A stretch of DNA of 64,000 nt, from the NCBI GenBank assembly GCA_022709695.1, contig JAKLII010000003.1, forward strand, positions 268,124 through 332,123, read 5' to 3'. The translations under genes and the position numbers were made by a program. A model generated the notes under the pieces. It worked only from the letters and a program-made list of their open reading frames with translations. It was not told where the DNA came from and ran no database searches. This stretch comes from Bacteroidota bacterium (lineage in GTDB: Bacteria; Bacteroidota; Bacteroidia; Bacteroidales; SKPS01). Below are positions 55,897 through 64,000 of this stretch, piece by piece (positions within the stretch are counted from its first letter, which is position 1; each line of letters starts with the position of its first letter).

Positions 55897-55926
55897 ACGA
55901 GTAAGCACACATTAAAATTGGAAAAA

Positions 55927-56751
55927 ATGAATTTTTCACAAAGAATTGGTAAAACATCTATCCGAGATAGTTTGCAATTAGACGATATTGATATTGTGCT
56001 GAAGAATAGAATTTGGAATAATATTCTTCAAGACTTTCTTAATAAGCTGGACGATGGTTTAAGTATTCAGATATACAAATTAATTTGGACTGAATTCTTT
56101 ACAAATCCAATAGACGAATTCCCTTCTGGTTTATATGGATCTTACATTTCTCAAAACAATAAATATTTAAAGGAATGGTTCTATTCGACCAAATGGTATA
56201 ATATTTATAATTTAGTTGAATTTATCACATTTTTTGACTCTCAAATAGATAGTACAAAATTTATTGAAAAATGTAATAATAGTCTTGAAAAGGAAATGTC
56301 TGGTTTTCGAATTGTAGACAAAATTGTTGTGCAAATAACCAGCGAAGAAGAGATAGAAGAAATAGAATCAGCTTTAAAAATTACATCGAGATGGCAATCT
56401 GTAAACGAACACCTTGAAACGGCTCTAAAATATATGGCTGATAGACAAGCACCTGATTACAGAAATTCTATTAAGGAATCTATTTCTGCAATCGAAAGCT
56501 TTTGCAAAATTATTACGGGGGACGAGAAAGCGACATTAGGGAAAGCGTTAAACCAAATTGAATTTAAATGGGGAATTCATAAATCATTAAAAAGCGCATT
56601 TTCTGCTCTTTATGGATATACAAGTGATGAGAGTGGTATTAGGCATTCTCTGCTTGAAAACGGACAAGAAATATTATTCGAAGATGCAAAGTTTATGTTG
56701 GTTTCTTGTTCAGCCTTTATAAACTTTTTGAAAATTAAAATTGAAAAATAA
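55927..56751 (+). CDS. AbiJ-NTD4-like abortive-infection family protein
   Basis: A 274-residue protein starting at the ATG at 55927 (MNFSQRIGKTSIRDSLQLDD); a TTG at 55918 adds three residues. The N-terminal 40-120 residues, with RIGKTSIRDSLQLDDIDIVL and IWNNILQDF, look like the AbiJ_NTD4 domain. The C-terminal helical part (about 155-274) holds YRNSIKESISAIESFCKII, LGKALNQIEF and SGIRHSLLEN; the RH pair at 239-240 recalls HEPN-type RNase domains, though not in the classic Rx4-6H spacing. It is AT-rich with foreign-looking codon use. Predicted phage-defence toxin, by family analogy. Confidence 0.7.
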   Translation: MNFSQRIGKTSIRDSLQLDDIDIVLKNRIWNNILQDFLNKLDDGLSIQIYKLIWTEFFTNPIDEFPSGLYGSYISQNNKYLKEWFYSTKWYNIYNLVEFITFFDSQIDSTKFIEKCNNSLEKEMSGFRIVDKIVVQITSEEEIEEIESALKITSRWQSVNEHLETALKYMADRQAPDYRNSIKESISAIESFCKIITGDEKATLGKALNQIEFKWGIHKSLKSAFSALYGYTSDESGIRHSLLENGQEILFEDAKFMLVSCSAFINFLKIKIEK

Positions 56752-56950
56752 AATATGCAAATAGCACGTAGTCCCAATAGCCAATGAGAGAGCAAATTGA
56801 AATAGCAGTGCCCCGCAGAAAATTTGTAGCGGGTGACAGGGACGAAGCCTGCAAAACGGCTTCTGGGCATAGCTGCAAAACATTATACAACATAGTAAAA
56901 AGTAGAAAATCAGAGAATTTAAACCTTAGCTAATTTATAAATATACATTT
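56752..56950. other. Structured intergenic spacer
   Basis: Nested inverted repeats: outer TGCC (56809-56812) / GGCA (56866-56869), inner CCGC (56813-56816) / GCGG (56829-56832), and GAAGCC (56844-56849) / GGCTTC (56858-56863) around TGCAAAAC. The three stems can form a two-hairpin, multi-branch structure of about 61 bases. The flanks are AT-rich. No ORF or promoter box is convincing. Confidence 0.5.
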
Positions 56951-58093
56951 ATGGGAAATTTAGCTCTTAACAGATTGCCTATAGAAAGGGAAATTTGGAC
57001 AAAACCAGAAGAGACTACTAATGGTAATATAAATGAATATGACGATCATAATGGATTTGGCTACGCAGTTTGGCCTTGTAATTATACGATAGATTTAGAA
57101 TCTGAATTTCGTTTATCAGTAATAAGGTTTTTACTTTGGGACAATTTAGGCAAACCAGGAACCAATGTCAATCCAAGAAAATATAAATTCACATTAAGCG
57201 TATCTTCTGATGGAATTAACTATTTTACTATTTTCTCAAATCAAAATAAAGACGGAGGAAATGGATGGTTTGCGTTTGAATTTACAAACGATTTTTATGC
57301 CAGATACATTAGACTGACTGGGCACTTTAATTCTGCCAATAAACATTTTCATTTAGTTGAATTTGAAATTCATGACCAAGCACCGCCACCTGTTGTAAGT
57401 AAGAATTACCAATCTATTGATATTGCGGCTGGAATTGGAATGCCTAGTGAACAAAGAATGACTGAACTGATTAATAATGTTATATCTACAAGGAGTGCAA
57501 TATTTGAAGGTGTTGAAGAAAAGTTGAAAATGCTTGATTCTTCTTTAAAAAAATCGGGTGAAGCTTTTGAACAAATTGATTTAATTAAAAAAAGTAACGA
57601 TTTCACAACGGAAGCTGCTAATAATAATAAGAGAGCCATCAAATGGTTATGGGCATCTGGTATTACACTTCTATTGTTCCTTGTAATTTTAATATGGTTT
57701 GTGTTCTGTGACAATCATTCTACAAAAATTATCACAGACGCTGCAAAGGACATGAATGTTCAGCCATATACGACTTTATTGGTAAGCGCATTTTATGCTA
57801 CAAAAGCAGTCCTCCTCTCGACAATATTATTTATTTTAACATGGTTATTAAAGAATTATCGCTCTGAAAAGCACAATTATGTGATCAATAAGCATAAAGC
57901 TATGACATTGACAGTAGCAACGGGTATATTAACAAAGGAAGATTATAAAAACACGGATAGAGGAAATATTTTTATTCAAGCAATGGAAATAATATTTACT
58001 CATCAGGTATCAGGGTTTTCAAAAGAGGATACAAGTTCACCAAATGTGATAGATTCGCTTTTACAGAAAGGAATACCTAAGGGAGACATGTAA
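56951..58093 (+). CDS. Discoidin (F5/8C)-domain protein with coiled coil and two membrane helices
   Basis: A 380-residue protein. An N-terminal F5/8 type C (galactose-binding-like) domain covers about 5-142: YTIDLESEFRLSVIRFLLW, NPRKYKFTLSVSSDGINYFT and ARYIRLTGHFNSANKHFHLVEFEI (shown in parts). A charged helical linker follows (165-225, RSAIFEGVEEKLKMLDSSLK). Helix 1 is about 231-252 and helix 2 about 282-300, then a basic cytoplasmic tail with HNYVINKHKAMTL. There is no signal peptide, and positive residues flank both helices on the N-in/C-in side, so the discoidin domain should face the cytoplasm. I do not recognise a named family for the whole. AT-rich, single-gene unit; a defence sensor or effector is possible. 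Confidence 0.65.
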   Translation: MGNLALNRLPIEREIWTKPEETTNGNINEYDDHNGFGYAVWPCNYTIDLESEFRLSVIRFLLWDNLGKPGTNVNPRKYKFTLSVSSDGINYFTIFSNQNKDGGNGWFAFEFTNDFYARYIRLTGHFNSANKHFHLVEFEIHDQAPPPVVSKNYQSIDIAAGIGMPSEQRMTELINNVISTRSAIFEGVEEKLKMLDSSLKKSGEAFEQIDLIKKSNDFTTEAANNNKRAIKWLWASGITLLLFLVILIWFVFCDNHSTKIITDAAKDMNVQPYTTLLVSAFYATKAVLLSTILFILTWLLKNYRSEKHNYVINKHKAMTLTVATGILTKEDYKNTDRGNIFIQAMEIIFTHQVSGFSKEDTSSPNVIDSLLQKGIPKGDM

Positions 58094-58128
58094 ATAGTAA
58101 AACAATTTAACAGAACAAAATTGCATAA

Positions 58129-58250
58129 TAACGGCTTTCTAAAAACGGGGCAGACGGTTTATAGGATAGTGGAGTTCTTTTATCTATCTTTGGGGTATCA
58201 AGACACGAAACGGCTTCGATACCCCCGCCAGTAGAAATCCACGACCGTTA
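58129..58250. other. Structured spacer with nested inverted repeats
   Basis: TAACGG at 58129-58134 and CCGTTA at 58245-58250 bracket 122 bases. Inside, GGGGTATC (58192-58199) pairs perfectly with GATACCCC (58218-58225). TATCTTTG at 58185-58192 overlaps the hairpin, so it may also hold a promoter. It is placed like the spacer at 56809-56869, after a single accessory gene. Confidence 0.5.
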
Positions 58251-58532
58251 ACTCCAATTGTAAGGTCAGACAACGAACGACAGAAAATTGAAAAGTAAAC
58301 CATTGTGAAAGAACAAAAAAACGAAACATTGACAAGATCAAAGAGCCGACACTCAAGCCGACCCATTTTTTTTTTTATCACCACACATTATTTAAAACAA
58401 TTGCCGACCCGCATTGCACACGACTTGTCTTGGTTTTTCGGGATTGCCAAAGCCCCACAAGCCAGCACTACGACTAAAACTTTGTCAAAGAGTGCAATCT
58501 TTCAAACGCAACAATTAATGTGAATTCACAAT
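58251..58532. other. Intergenic DNA upstream of the DUF6361 operon
   Basis: Low-complexity, repeat-poor DNA with a run of 12 T at about 58365-58376. An open frame at 58305-58523 gives a 72-residue product without domain character or signal and is treated as chance. No consensus promoter box is obvious within 60 bases of the DUF6361 start, so the box at 58185 or a non-canonical promoter may serve. Confidence 0.4.
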
Positions 58533-59777
58533 ATGGCTCAGATTGGCTGGATAGATTTTTCAAAAGCACATCATAACAAAGTAATGTTAGTGATGGACAT
58601 GTTCAAAGAGCAAGGTGTTATTGACGAACTTGGTTTGGGAACCATCCGGGATGCATTGAGCGATTTGTTATTTCCAGGAACTTCTACCATCCAAACGAGG
58701 GCAAAATATTTCCTACTTATTCCCTGGATAATTCAGGATATCGAGAAAAAAGAAAAACTTGACCGGTTTCAGTCAGAACTGGAGCAATCAGAAATTCATT
58801 TTGTAAAAACGTTAAAGAAGAATTCCCCACCGAAAAGCGGAGTTATTGGTGAAACTTTACTGAATTCAAATCCAAAGCGAAAACCATCTTCAGTTTATTG
58901 GAATGGTTTAAGAATATATGACATTCTTAGATTTCAGGGTTCTTTAAACGATTACATAAAAAATCAAAAGTATTACTTCCAAAAAGAGCAAAAAACAAAG
59001 AGTCAACTGGCCGATGCAACTGGAAATGTTCCTGGAGACGATAAAGATGCGAACCACCTCTACCAGCATAAATTGTGGGCATCGGTTCCAAAACCACCCA
59101 AAGATTGGAAAGAAAACCTCTCTATTGAGTTATCAAATGATGAAGCTACATTTTTAAAGGAAAGCATAATCAGAAGCAATAGTCAGACTTTATTCGCCTT
59201 TGCACTTACTGATTGTATGGAAGTTGCAAAGGATTTTTATGGTATTGATGATTTTCTTTATGTGCCTAATCTTCCTGATGATTTAAAAAAGATAATAAAA
59301 GTTGCCATTGACTTTAATTCCATCATGCAAGGTGCTTTGATTCGGTATAATTTGCTGATTCAGTTAAACAGGGAAAATGGGAATACTAATCAATTGCAAC
59401 TTGTTTGGGAAGATTATTGGAACGAAATGCAAAATTTTAATTGGAATAATTGGAACACAAAAGCACTTTGGGAATATTGCCCATACATAAAGCCATCAAC
59501 AAGAAGATTCCTTGAACAATGGATGGAATTTGTCAAAGCTGATTCATACAACCAGACCGAGGCTGACTTCATGTTGAAAAATAGAGAATTACGTTTAAAA
59601 GGATTACGCAGAGCAAGGTTAAGTGATAAAGCAATTGCCCAAAAACAGGAAAATACTACAGGTATTTCGATTTACCAGGATGGTTCAGTTTCATATCTAA
59701 CTTACAGGTGGAATACTGTAAAAACTTATTTAAATGACATCTATAACGGAATAACAAATAATGTTACAGCCCAGTAA
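58533..59777 (+). CDS. DUF6361 family protein (ZacA-like)
   Basis: A 414-residue soluble protein. The N-terminus has the DUF6361 pattern: IGWIDFSKAHHNKVMLVM, GVIDELGLGTIRDALSDLLF (split in two motifs, DELGLGTIRDALSDLLF and PGTSTIQTRAKYF, residues 31-60). The remainder is helical, without catalytic motifs I recognise. It is first in an overlapping three-gene operon with a PLD-like nuclease and a helicase. I recall DUF6361 as the first component of the Azaca anti-phage system; that naming is from memory. Codon use is AT-rich, in contrast with the core genome. Confidence 0.85.
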   Translation: MAQIGWIDFSKAHHNKVMLVMDMFKEQGVIDELGLGTIRDALSDLLFPGTSTIQTRAKYFLLIPWIIQDIEKKEKLDRFQSELEQSEIHFVKTLKKNSPPKSGVIGETLLNSNPKRKPSSVYWNGLRIYDILRFQGSLNDYIKNQKYYFQKEQKTKSQLADATGNVPGDDKDANHLYQHKLWASVPKPPKDWKENLSIELSNDEATFLKESIIRSNSQTLFAFALTDCMEVAKDFYGIDDFLYVPNLPDDLKKIIKVAIDFNSIMQGALIRYNLLIQLNRENGNTNQLQLVWEDYWNEMQNFNWNNWNTKALWEYCPYIKPSTRRFLEQWMEFVKADSYNQTEADFMLKNRELRLKGLRRARLSDKAIAQKQENTTGISIYQDGSVSYLTYRWNTVKTYLNDIYNGITNNVTAQ

Positions 59778-61581
59778 AGACAGATTAGATTATGGAAGTT
59801 TGCTAATGCCACCAGAAGGATATTATCTGGAAAATGCAATAGCAACAAGTTATTCCATTAACCTGGATGCGCTAATTTCGATTCCGGTTGCTTTGTATTT
59901 TTCACATTCGTTGGAACTTGATATAAAACAGGACATCGTTCAGGTTTTAGATTCCATTAGGAGAGCAAGCAATACCATAAAAGTCTTTTGTCAAAAAGGA
60001 CAGATTACTGTACCTGATAACCAACACCGGCTATATAGTTATATTGAACCGTGCATTGTTCAGGTTCCGCCAAGTCACCTTAATTCATTTCATCCAAAAG
60101 TTTGGGTTATTAAATACAAGAATAACTTAGGTGATATAAAATTCAGGGTGATTGTTTTAAGTCGGAATTTAACTTTTGACCGTAGTTGGGATGTTGCATT
60201 TCAGTTGGACGGTAATTTTATACAAGAACGACAAAGAAATTACGGTAACACAAAACCACTTATTGATTTTATTAAATATTTGGGAACCTATGAAGAAGTT
60301 GATTGGTTTGAAAACTTCATCTCGGATTTAGGTAAAACTGACTTTCAGTTAAACTCAAACGAATTCGAAAGTTTTTCCTTTGAACCTTCAGGTTTCCCTG
60401 GTTATAAAAAGAACGTACTTTTTAATAATCAGATTTATGATGACATGCTTATTATCAGTCCCTTCCTCACGAACAGTGGGTTGGAAATAGCAAAAAGGTA
60501 TTCACGAAACAAGGCAAAACTATTTAGCAGAGAATATGAATTAAACAAGATAAACCCACAGCATATTGGGGATTTTTCTGTTTATCATTTGGTAAATGAA
60601 TTTGTTGAAGGGGAAGAAAAAATTGAGTCTGATACAGATGAAAATATTTCCCCCCAATTACAGGACCTGCATGCTAAAGTATATTCATGCAGATTAGGTT
60701 GGAATGCAGCTTTGGTATTAGGTTCAGCAAATTGTAGTGAAAGAGCCATGCATCGTAATGTGGAATTTATGATTCAATTAAATGGGAAGAATTCGAAAAT
60801 AGGCCCTGATGCATTGTTTAAAGAATTGGTGAATGATGATTTGAATGTATTCCAACTTTACAATCCTTCTGAACCGCTTTCGGAGCAACAAGAGGAATTA
60901 AATAGTCAGGAGGAAGAATTACAAAAGCTTAAAATCGAGATTGTTAATTCAATAATTACAGCAAATGCAAATAAGCAGAAAGACTCAAATTTCTCAATCG
61001 ATTTTGATTATGACCTTGCCAAATTACCATTTAATCCAAAAGTAGAAGTAACTGCATATTTACTCAACAATAAGGAACAAAGTCAGGAATTAAAATTAGG
61101 AGATTCAAATCAATGGACAGTATATAATATTGCCGAAATAGATATATCCTGTTTCCTGATAATTGAACTAAGAATCAAGGGTACCATGGTTGCCCTGAGT
61201 TTTGTATTAAAAATTCATCTTAATAATATACCTGCATCACGAAGTTCAAGAATTTTCAAGGATATCATCTCGAATACTGCAAACTTCTTTAAATACATTC
61301 GTTTCCTGTTGGCAGAAAATTATTGGGACGAGGAATATATATTCAATGGATTAAACGGGAAACCTTACAAGGGAAACGGACTGGGAGATTACCTGGCACG
61401 TGAGGAACCCATCTATGAAAATATGCTAAAAGCCATTTCAAGAGAACCTGAGAAGTTGACGGAGATAAAAACAGTAATGGATAAATTAAGCGAAGAAGAA
61501 AACGTGGAAGAATCTATTATTCCAGAAGATTTTAAAACGCTGTGGAAAATATTCGAAGAAATACAACTAAAACATAAATGA
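59761..61581 (+). CDS. Phospholipase D-like nuclease with two HxK half-sites
   Basis: A 606-residue protein. Half-site 1: H111 and K113 in SFHPKVWVIK, then S134 and N136 in VLSRNLTFD with D144. Half-site 2: H304 and K306 in LHAKVYSC, then G321-S322-N324 in VLGSANCSERAM and E336 in RNVEFMIQL. The pair forms one PLD active site, as in DNA nucleases of defence systems. The C-terminal 250 residues contain a coiled coil (about 360-395, rich in Glu and Gln) and a beta-rich region. It overlaps the DUF6361 gene by 17 bases and the helicase by 4 (ATGA), so expression is tightly coupled. Confidence 0.88.
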   Translation: MLQPSKDRLDYGSLLMPPEGYYLENAIATSYSINLDALISIPVALYFSHSLELDIKQDIVQVLDSIRRASNTIKVFCQKGQITVPDNQHRLYSYIEPCIVQVPPSHLNSFHPKVWVIKYKNNLGDIKFRVIVLSRNLTFDRSWDVAFQLDGNFIQERQRNYGNTKPLIDFIKYLGTYEEVDWFENFISDLGKTDFQLNSNEFESFSFEPSGFPGYKKNVLFNNQIYDDMLIISPFLTNSGLEIAKRYSRNKAKLFSREYELNKINPQHIGDFSVYHLVNEFVEGEEKIESDTDENISPQLQDLHAKVYSCRLGWNAALVLGSANCSERAMHRNVEFMIQLNGKNSKIGPDALFKELVNDDLNVFQLYNPSEPLSEQQEELNSQEEELQKLKIEIVNSIITANANKQKDSNFSIDFDYDLAKLPFNPKVEVTAYLLNNKEQSQELKLGDSNQWTVYNIAEIDISCFLIIELRIKGTMVALSFVLKIHLNNIPASRSSRIFKDIISNTANFFKYIRFLLAENYWDEEYIFNGLNGKPYKGNGLGDYLAREEPIYENMLKAISREPEKLTEIKTVMDKLSEEENVEESIIPEDFKTLWKIFEEIQLKHK

Positions 61582-64000
61582 AATCAAATCCACATAGTCA
61601 GTTAAAAGATTTTCAAATTGCTACAGTAGATTATGTATTTAAAAGATTTACTGATTCAGAAAATCCATGTAACCGTTTTTTGATTGCTGACGAAGTTGGA
61701 TTGGGCAAAACATTGGTAGCTCGTGGAATCATTCATAAGTTCTACGATTATCACAAATCACTTGGATTAAATCAGTTAAAAGTCATTTATATATGCTCCA
61801 ATCAAAGTATTGCAAATCAAAATATTAGTAGACTGAATATTGAAACTGAAGAAAAACATTCCCTTTCACAAATTCATCGAATTAATGATTTGGCAGTCAC
61901 AAACATAAATCATGATGGAAAATCCTTTTTAGAAATTATAGCATTATCTCCCGATACATCATTCAATATCTCAAGGGGTGGCGGAATAGTAAAGGAAAGA
62001 GCAATTATTTATCATATCCTAAGTAAACATCCTGAATTTCATTTATATAAACGAAAATTAAAAAGAATTTTTCAGTTGGATGTCAAAGACGAAAACTGGA
62101 AATGGTGGATAGATTTTGTTGAAACGCAGTTGAGGGAAGAAATTGCCGTAAAATTCAATCATAAGTTAGACTCAACAGACGTAACTTATTGGGCATTATT
62201 TAGGGTTTGTGAGAACAGATTTGGCAAAAATGAATTTAGAGATTATAGAAAATTAATAGGTGGCTTAAGAAAGTTACTTGCATCGATTTGTGTCTCTTAT
62301 TTACAGCCTGATTTAATTATCATGGATGAATTCCAAAGATTTAAATATTTGATTGATTTGGATGAAGATAGTGAGGCAAAACTTATTACTGAAAGTCTAT
62401 TGACAAATGATAAAATAAACATTTTACTACTGTCTGCAACCCCATATAAAATGTACGTTATGCAGTCAGAAGAAGATGACGGCGAATGCCACTTTGAAGA
62501 ATTTAAATTCATTGTTGATTTCTTATTAAACGATGAAATCAAGAGAAAGCAGTTCGAAGAAGTATGGAAAATTTACTCCAACTCATTAATTCATTTACAA
62601 CAAGGGAATTGGGATTTAATAAGAAATCAAAAGAATAAAGTTGAAAGAATTCTTAAAGATGTAATTGCAAGAACTGAGCGAATAACAGTTTCAGACGACA
62701 GAAACACGATGTTACAACCATCAAAATCCGATATTCTGTGGATAAACCAGGATGATATTCTAAGTTTTATTTCTGCTGATACTGTTGCTTTAAAACTTAA
62801 TAATGTAAACAGTCCCATTGAATATTGTAAATCATCAGCATTCCCTTTTTCATTTATGGAGGGTTACCAACTTCAAAAAATTACACTAAAAGAAATCGCA
62901 AAAGGGAATGATGAACTAAAGTCTGCTTTAAGAAAGAATAGTCGATCATTTCTTCCTATTTCAGAAATGGATGATTACCAACAAATCGGAAGTCCTAATG
63001 CAAAATTGGCCTACCTTTTATACGACTCACTTTACAACGGTGGAAGCGATTTACTTTGGGTACCCCCCTCATTGCCATATTACGATTTTGAAGCACCATT
63101 CGCGGGAAATGAACTGTTTTCAAAAAGTTTGGTATTTTCTTCGTGGATAATGGTTCCAAAAATGATAGCAGCACTTTCATCTTATGAATGCGAAAGAATG
63201 ACAATTGGTGATGAAAATGCTATTAATAATGCTGAAGACAGAAGCCAAAGAAAATATTTTCAAACTGGTTCAGAAAGAAATCCAAAGGCACGATTAAGAT
63301 TCGGAATGGAAAGAAACAATTACAGCACACTTTCAAGTTATGCATTACTTTATCCGTGCATTACACTTACTAATCTTTGGAAGCCAGTTTTAAAAACCAT
63401 CAACCTAAGCAATTTAATTTCTAACCTTTCCACCCAAATCAATTCTTTAATAAGTGGAATTTCAATAAAGGAATTCATTTCTGAACCTAATAAAAAGAAT
63501 GATGACCGATGGGCATTAATTTATATGCTTCTGCTCGATAGAAAGTATAAAATGGAGCAAATTAATCACATTAAGGAAAGTGAAAGCGAATATGATTGGA
63601 ATTGGTTAAAAGGTGATTCAGAAGTGTCAGTTGCTAGTGAGTATTACAAGAAAGTGTTTACAGAAATTTTATTTGCTGAAAGACCAAAATTTATTCCAGC
63701 CTGGGAATTAGCTCGTGGTATTCGGCCTGAAAATGCAATACGAAATACATTAATTCAATTAAGGCTTGGGCAGCCACCTGCTGACATCGCACAAAAATTG
63801 GCATACCTTACAATTGCGTCACCTGCAATTTGCTCTTATCGGCTGTTAAACGCATTTTCAAAGCTGGAGAAAGATATTAATTACATCTCATTTTTTGGGG
63901 CATTTCAAATTGCAGATAGTTTCAGAAGGTTTTTTAATGTATCTGAGAACATTGCTGTAGTTGACAAATATGCCAAAAGAGATAAATCTTATTGGGAGAA
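61578..64000 (+). CDS. Large SF2 helicase (ZacC-like), 3' end outside window
   Basis: An ATG at 61578, overlapping the previous stop as ATGA, opens a frame without stop to the window end (over 807 codons). Walker A is ADEVGLGKT (residues 38-46). The motif II position reads LIIMDEFQRF (D250-E251-F252-Q253), that is DEFQ rather than DEAH or DEAD. Motif III is LLLSATPYK (about 283-291). A second-lobe entry motif FSSWIMVPKM and SYECER lies at 520-540; the remaining lobe-2 motifs are expected past the end. It is most like the large helicase-related proteins accompanying PLD nucleases in defence loci. Confidence 0.88.
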   Translation, partial: MKSNPHSQLKDFQIATVDYVFKRFTDSENPCNRFLIADEVGLGKTLVARGIIHKFYDYHKSLGLNQLKVIYICSNQSIANQNISRLNIETEEKHSLSQIHRINDLAVTNINHDGKSFLEIIALSPDTSFNISRGGGIVKERAIIYHILSKHPEFHLYKRKLKRIFQLDVKDENWKWWIDFVETQLREEIAVKFNHKLDSTDVTYWALFRVCENRFGKNEFRDYRKLIGGLRKLLASICVSYLQPDLIIMDEFQRFKYLIDLDEDSEAKLITESLLTNDKINILLLSATPYKMYVMQSEEDDGECHFEEFKFIVDFLLNDEIKRKQFEEVWKIYSNSLIHLQQGNWDLIRNQKNKVERILKDVIARTERITVSDDRNTMLQPSKSDILWINQDDILSFISADTVALKLNNVNSPIEYCKSSAFPFSFMEGYQLQKITLKEIAKGNDELKSALRKNSRSFLPISEMDDYQQIGSPNAKLAYLLYDSLYNGGSDLLWVPPSLPYYDFEAPFAGNELFSKSLVFSSWIMVPKMIAALSSYECERMTIGDENAINNAEDRSQRKYFQTGSERNPKARLRFGMERNNYSTLSSYALLYPCITLTNLWKPVLKTINLSNLISNLSTQINSLISGISIKEFISEPNKKNDDRWALIYMLLLDRKYKMEQINHIKESESEYDWNWLKGDSEVSVASEYYKKVFTEILFAERPKFIPAWELARGIRPENAIRNTLIQLRLGQPPADIAQKLAYLTIASPAICSYRLLNAFSKLEKDINYISFFGAFQIADSFRRFFNVSENIAVVDKYAKRDKSYWE

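Follow-up and report, generated by a model that had tools for sequence, protein, structure and literature searches.

A complete Azaca (ZacABC) operon in a Bacteroidales defence island, with a predicted helicase motor and a predicted PLD-superfamily nuclease

Results

Gene content and composition of the locus

The window, the whole stretch of 64,000 nucleotides analysed here (G000:C15:268124-332123), ends inside the last of three consecutive genes, which follow an AT-rich gap and two further genes:

55918..58093, + strand: two flanking island genes outside Azaca, an AbiJ_NTD4/PDC-S32 gene and a discoidin-like gene (GC 0.320)
58094..58532, strand not given: AT-rich gap ahead of zacA
58533..59777, + strand: zacA, 414 aa, DUF6361 protein (PADLOC ZacA and Pfam)
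59761..61581, + strand: zacB, 606 aa, PLD-superfamily predicted nuclease with two HxK...N...(D/E) half-sites in a single chain
61578..64000, + strand: zacC, SF2 SNF2/RapA-like helicase, 807/1,087 aa within the window

The overlaps of 17 and 4 bases noticed in the original prediction are both exact by the ORF coordinates, and its visibly AT-rich segment is borne out by composition, zacABC having a GC content of 0.337 (34%) against 0.500 (50%) in window positions 1-55900 and a GC3 of 0.26-0.32 where the adjacent core gene has 0.81. The segment begins at about 55.9 kb in the window. A search of the gap at 58094-58532 for the Bacteroidota-type promoter TTTG-N17-23-TANNTTTG gave no match. Reading on along the contig supplied the rest of the helicase, which had been placed past the window: just the 3' end of zacC lay outside, with its stop 841 bases past the window end (G000:C15:332964), and the whole ZacC is 1,087 aa long.

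Assignment to Azaca

In an HMM profile search against PADLOC, all three proteins matched ZacA, ZacB and ZacC full length and in the right gene order (E values 1e-108 to 1e-183, which rule out a chance match), so the name given to the set in the original prediction, Azaca (ZacABC), is correct. ZacA matched at 1.2e-108 (residues 3-407 on profile positions 4-394/396), ZacB at 1.9e-149 (profile 1-581/586) and ZacC at 5e-183 when cut at the window end and at 4.4e-286 when whole (profile 10-1018/1019). The DUF6361 signature seen in the first gene was recovered with Pfam (4.3e-35, 121.9 bits against a cut-off of 25), which also gave a weak PLDc_2 match on zacB and ResIII/DEAD on zacC. The Azaca gene order A-B-C on one strand is present here and recurs in related loci; the assignment comes from PADLOC profile matches and gene order, as distinct from PADLOC system-calling rules. 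Judged from its sequence, the locus is a complete, intact Azaca copy, a new copy of a known system rather than a new thing. Azaca was reportedly discovered experimentally by Millman et al. 2022.

That the locus is instead another PLD-helicase system (DISARM, Mokosh, Dpd or Hma) is extremely improbable: ZacC does share helicase-core stretches with the DrmD, DpdE, BrxH and DrmA profiles, and ZacB weakly touches DrmC, but these matches are local and far under the curated cut-offs, whereas the ZacA-C profiles match full length. DISARM, which the original prediction had named as an example of a system that further downstream genes might reveal, was rejected on scores (DrmC 17.7 against 133 bits, DrmD 12.7 against 610 bits) and because the genes that follow zacC are HsdR-HsdM-HsdS. 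Dpd was rejected on DpdE (25.5 bits against a cut-off of 500), Hma because ZacC had no HmaA match at 1e-5, and Mokosh because none of the three proteins matched the MkoA, MkoB or MkoC profiles at E 0.01. No DrmB, Mokosh or HmaA protein was found among the neighbours scanned, and no homologues of Draconibacterium HmaB/HmaC were found around the window locus.

Conserved motifs and structural relatives

The two PLD half-sites read in the second gene lie at H111-P-K113 with S134-R-N136 and at H304-A-K306 with G321-S322-A-N324 of ZacB, and the helicase motifs read in the third (GLGKT, DEFQ and SAT, here SATP) are present in ZacC, whose part past the window adds motif V (TTSIGQEGLDFH) and motif VI (QREGRINR). 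Nineteen ZacB and nineteen ZacC proteins were aligned, from Bacteroidota, Proteobacteria, one archaeon (plasmid) and one mobile element. ZacB H111, K113, N136, D144, H304, K306, S322, N324 and E335 are kept in 19/19 aligned loci, D144 being E in one locus, Janthinobacterium; ZacC retains motifs I, II, III, V and VI in 19/19 proteins with only conservative changes; and the ZacA motif DELGxGxxRDxxxxxxFPGxSTxQTR is largely conserved across 17 loci. A shortlist of conserved residues drawn from these alignments makes the Azaca mechanism directly testable: H111, K113, N136, D144, H304, K306, N324 and E335 in ZacB, GLGKT, DEFQ, GQEGLDFH and QREGR in ZacC, and DELG...FPGxST in ZacA.

Enzymes of the PLD superfamily like BfiI and NucT have nuclease activity, and RapA/SNF2 proteins translocate along double-stranded DNA. 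A predicted nuclease activity is favoured over a lipase activity for ZacB because its profile reaches the BfiI restriction endonuclease (2c1l), NucT (6ehi) and a putative helicase (7clg), the sequence matches to solved PLD structures being short (~40-53 residues). ZacC reaches RapA (RapA-type SWI2/SNF2 motors). ZacA had no detectable relative among proteins of known structure (best E 0.63, chance level), and AlphaFold2 models of ZacA and ZacB built on two-sequence alignments had mean pLDDT values of 33 and 32.

Related loci and rarity

Twenty Azaca loci were collected, of which each alignment holds 17 to 19, some copies being broken. They comprise the window, Draconibacterium orientale, a Marinifilaceae contig, Haliscomenobacter, Caballeronia, the archaeon Halomarina, Bradyrhizobium (two), Cronobacter, Rhizobium, Phaeobacter, Mesorhizobium, Shinella, Niveispirillum, Janthinobacterium, four further genomes of the same phylum and MT835621.1. 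The three genes strictly co-occur, the order A-B-C holds in every complete locus among the 20, and comparison of the loci shows which genes belong to the Azaca unit and which do not. The family is rare: ZacA was carried by at most 4/395 genomes, window genome included, in each of two samples (same phylum; same class), and a full ZacB by 2/295 genomes of the same order. No relative was found in the viral contigs scanned with the ZacA and ZacC alignments, nor did E. coli genomes give a DNA-level match to Cronobacter zacC.

MT835621.1 (L066 457-19346), labelled 'Bacteriophage sp.', looks like a bacterial mobile element, with a conjugation-type gene, HsdM, HsdS parts with a tyrosine recombinase, HsdR and then ZacABC. 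On five alphaproteobacterial plasmids (L033, L035, L037, L072, L073), zacA stands directly after an AddB/AddA-like pair (PD-(D/E)XK and UvrD helicase), which in 3 of the five is itself preceded by a multiubiquitin-ThiF-DUF6527 set.

Horizontal movement and selection

The window and Draconibacterium orientale FH5T (L009) share 90% DNA identity over 6,282 bases, from 5 bases before the zacA start codon to 37 bases before the zacC end, and nothing similar was found between them outside zacABC. By contrast, core genes diverge more: at the amino-acid level, that for an ABC-F protein in the window genome is 51% identical to its Draconibacterium counterpart and 54% identical to that of the Marinifilaceae genome, which also holds a near-identical zac copy, and the one for a cytochrome bd subunit reaches 66% with the latter genome. 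Because the 90% DNA identity is limited to the three genes while core genes reach only 51-66% amino-acid identity, we conclude that zacABC moved horizontally as one cassette. In the one same-genus genome, the contig with the corresponding site breaks off 400 bases beyond the gene on the left flank, and a rearrangement affects the right flank.

The dN/dS of zacABC, 0.08-0.13, shows purifying selection and hence genes kept functional over that divergence. Some related copies are broken, with zacB frameshifted near residue 557 in Draconibacterium, zacA split in Caballeronia and truncated ends in Marinifilaceae, and one might therefore take the present copy for a decayed, functionless remnant as well; we consider this very improbable, since its three reading frames are intact, all motifs are present and dN/dS is low. 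The Marinifilaceae fragment (contig JAFGYE010000034.1, L008) is without the first 19 zacA codons, holds only ~57 codons of zacC and has unrelated DNA at either end.

Genomic neighbourhood and possible association with methylation-based systems

Upstream, at 55918-56751, lies a gene for an AbiJ_NTD4-domain protein (PDC-S32 among the PADLOC candidates, 5e-103; listed with a TTG start), likely a further defence gene. The same contig read on past the window (L002 9431-18277) holds, 3' of zacC, HsdR-HsdM-HsdS (type I restriction-modification, R-M), RhuM (PDC-S05) and a Gp49-like toxin with an HTH antitoxin (HigBA-like pair). With AbiJ_NTD4 upstream and R-M, RhuM and toxin-antitoxin genes downstream, Azaca thus sits in a defence island. 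Between the AbiJ-like gene and zacA, the 380 aa product of positions 56951-58093 has no PADLOC match; it carries a weak discoidin (F5/8 type C) domain and, after it, two apparent membrane helices. Directly before the toxin-antitoxin pair, L002 17010-17414 consists of short-unit repeats open in two frames (RYYAPTELPILRSYGATDITLL).

Type I R-M adjoins Azaca in three arrangements: ZacABC followed by HsdR-HsdM-HsdS in the window genome, HsdM-HsdS-ZacABC-HsdR on a Haliscomenobacter plasmid, and HsdM-HsdS-HsdR with ZacABC 12 bases after hsdR in MT835621.1. Draconibacterium (L009 2323-15082) carries HmaB-HmaC-ZacABC in a row, without HmaA and with 68 bases from hmaC to zacA, and Shinella has a methyltransferase 30 bases 3' of zacC. 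From these arrangements one could read ZacABC as an accessory to methylation-based systems, type I or others, that would take their methylation as its self mark, but we consider this improbable. Most Azaca loci are without an adjacent methylase, and ZacABC also stands alone (for example, in Cronobacter pESA3, G449, G076 and G897); here, GC steps from 0.34 to 0.47 between zacC and hsdR, so that zacABC and the R-M genes were probably acquired separately and differ in history; and type I R-M genes are frequent in defence islands, the association being an observation without a computed null. A bolder version, in which ZacABC would be a transferable DNA-cutting unit that joins unrelated methylation-based defence systems (type I R-M, Hma) and relies on the marks they set, strikes us as more doubtful still; if true, it would explain both the repeated insertion beside or inside such systems and the near-exact movement of the cassette from start codon to stop codon.

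A survey of Pseudomonas places Hma and Azaca in one shared genomic-island hotspot (PMC12629846). HmaBC as a regular Azaca partner was rejected: the two are adjacent only in Draconibacterium, and among the HmaC plasmid matches listed only Niveispirillum also carries Azaca, ~20 kb off.

Discussion

Proposed mechanism

Our reading of the locus, to which we give a probability of about 0.62, is of a complete Azaca operon gained horizontally as a three-gene cassette and lying in a defence island, in which ZacC would be the motor, ZacB the nuclease and ZacA an adaptor or regulator. The mechanistic part is inferred: no published Azaca mechanism was found in the accessible literature, and a 2026 review lists it under 'Unknown' (PMC12926258). 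A domain survey places Azaca in its PLD-like domain row (PMC10952713), and the Hachiman paper counts ZacC among SF1/SF2 helicases (PMC12278908). Action by DNA unwinding and cleavage, as proposed in the original prediction, would fit the conserved motifs.

ZacC, apparently built of RapA/SNF2-like RecA lobes with a ~600-residue insert between motifs III and V, would be a double-stranded-DNA-dependent SF2 motor that recognises or translocates on invading DNA, and the two HxK half-sites of a single ZacB chain would form one PLD active site that cuts it. ZacA, always present and without a known fold or catalytic signature, may connect or hold back ZacB and ZacC as an adaptor or regulator; its role, like any ZacB-ZacC contact, is a guess. 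Because the conserved unit holds no methylase, the system would have to discriminate by a feature of the DNA or a cue of infection, not by a methylation mark of its own. Proteins of a different family (PADLOC 'HKD+Snf2'), found in genomes of the same taxonomic order, fuse PLD and SNF2 in a single chain, which shows that elsewhere the two kinds of domain function within one polypeptide.

An alternative interpretation is that Azaca acts by abortive infection, ZacC sensing damage or replication intermediates and freeing ZacB to degrade all cell DNA in a Hachiman-like manner. A helicase sensor coupled to a nuclease effector is the demonstrated logic of Hachiman HamAB (PMC12278908), and a self mark is not obvious, since many Azaca loci are without an adjacent methylase; however, HamA belongs to a different nuclease family, and we regard abortive infection as possible but on balance unlikely.

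Comparison with known systems

DISARM resembles the present locus in having a PLD protein (DrmC) next to an SNF2-type helicase (DrmD/DrmA), but the DrmA/DrmB/methylase set is absent here and, to our knowledge, DISARM is without DUF6361. Hachiman (HamAB) shares the logic of a helicase with a nuclease, and is thereby a model for the mechanism, but it uses another nuclease family, has two genes and is without DUF6361. The HKD+Snf2 proteins (PADLOC C3a139), found in genomes of the same order, likewise join PLD and SNF2 domains, although in one chain, without ZacA and with another helicase subfamily. With Azaca itself the locus agrees in which genes it has, their order and their lengths, and all three proteins match the profiles full length; the neighbourhood alone differs, with AbiJ_NTD4 and discoidin-like genes upstream and HsdR-HsdM-HsdS, RhuM and a HigBA-like pair downstream. 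The Azaca of Draconibacterium FH5T, whose identity with the present copy spans exactly the three genes, follows HmaB and HmaC and carries a frameshifted zacB, whereas here all three frames are intact.
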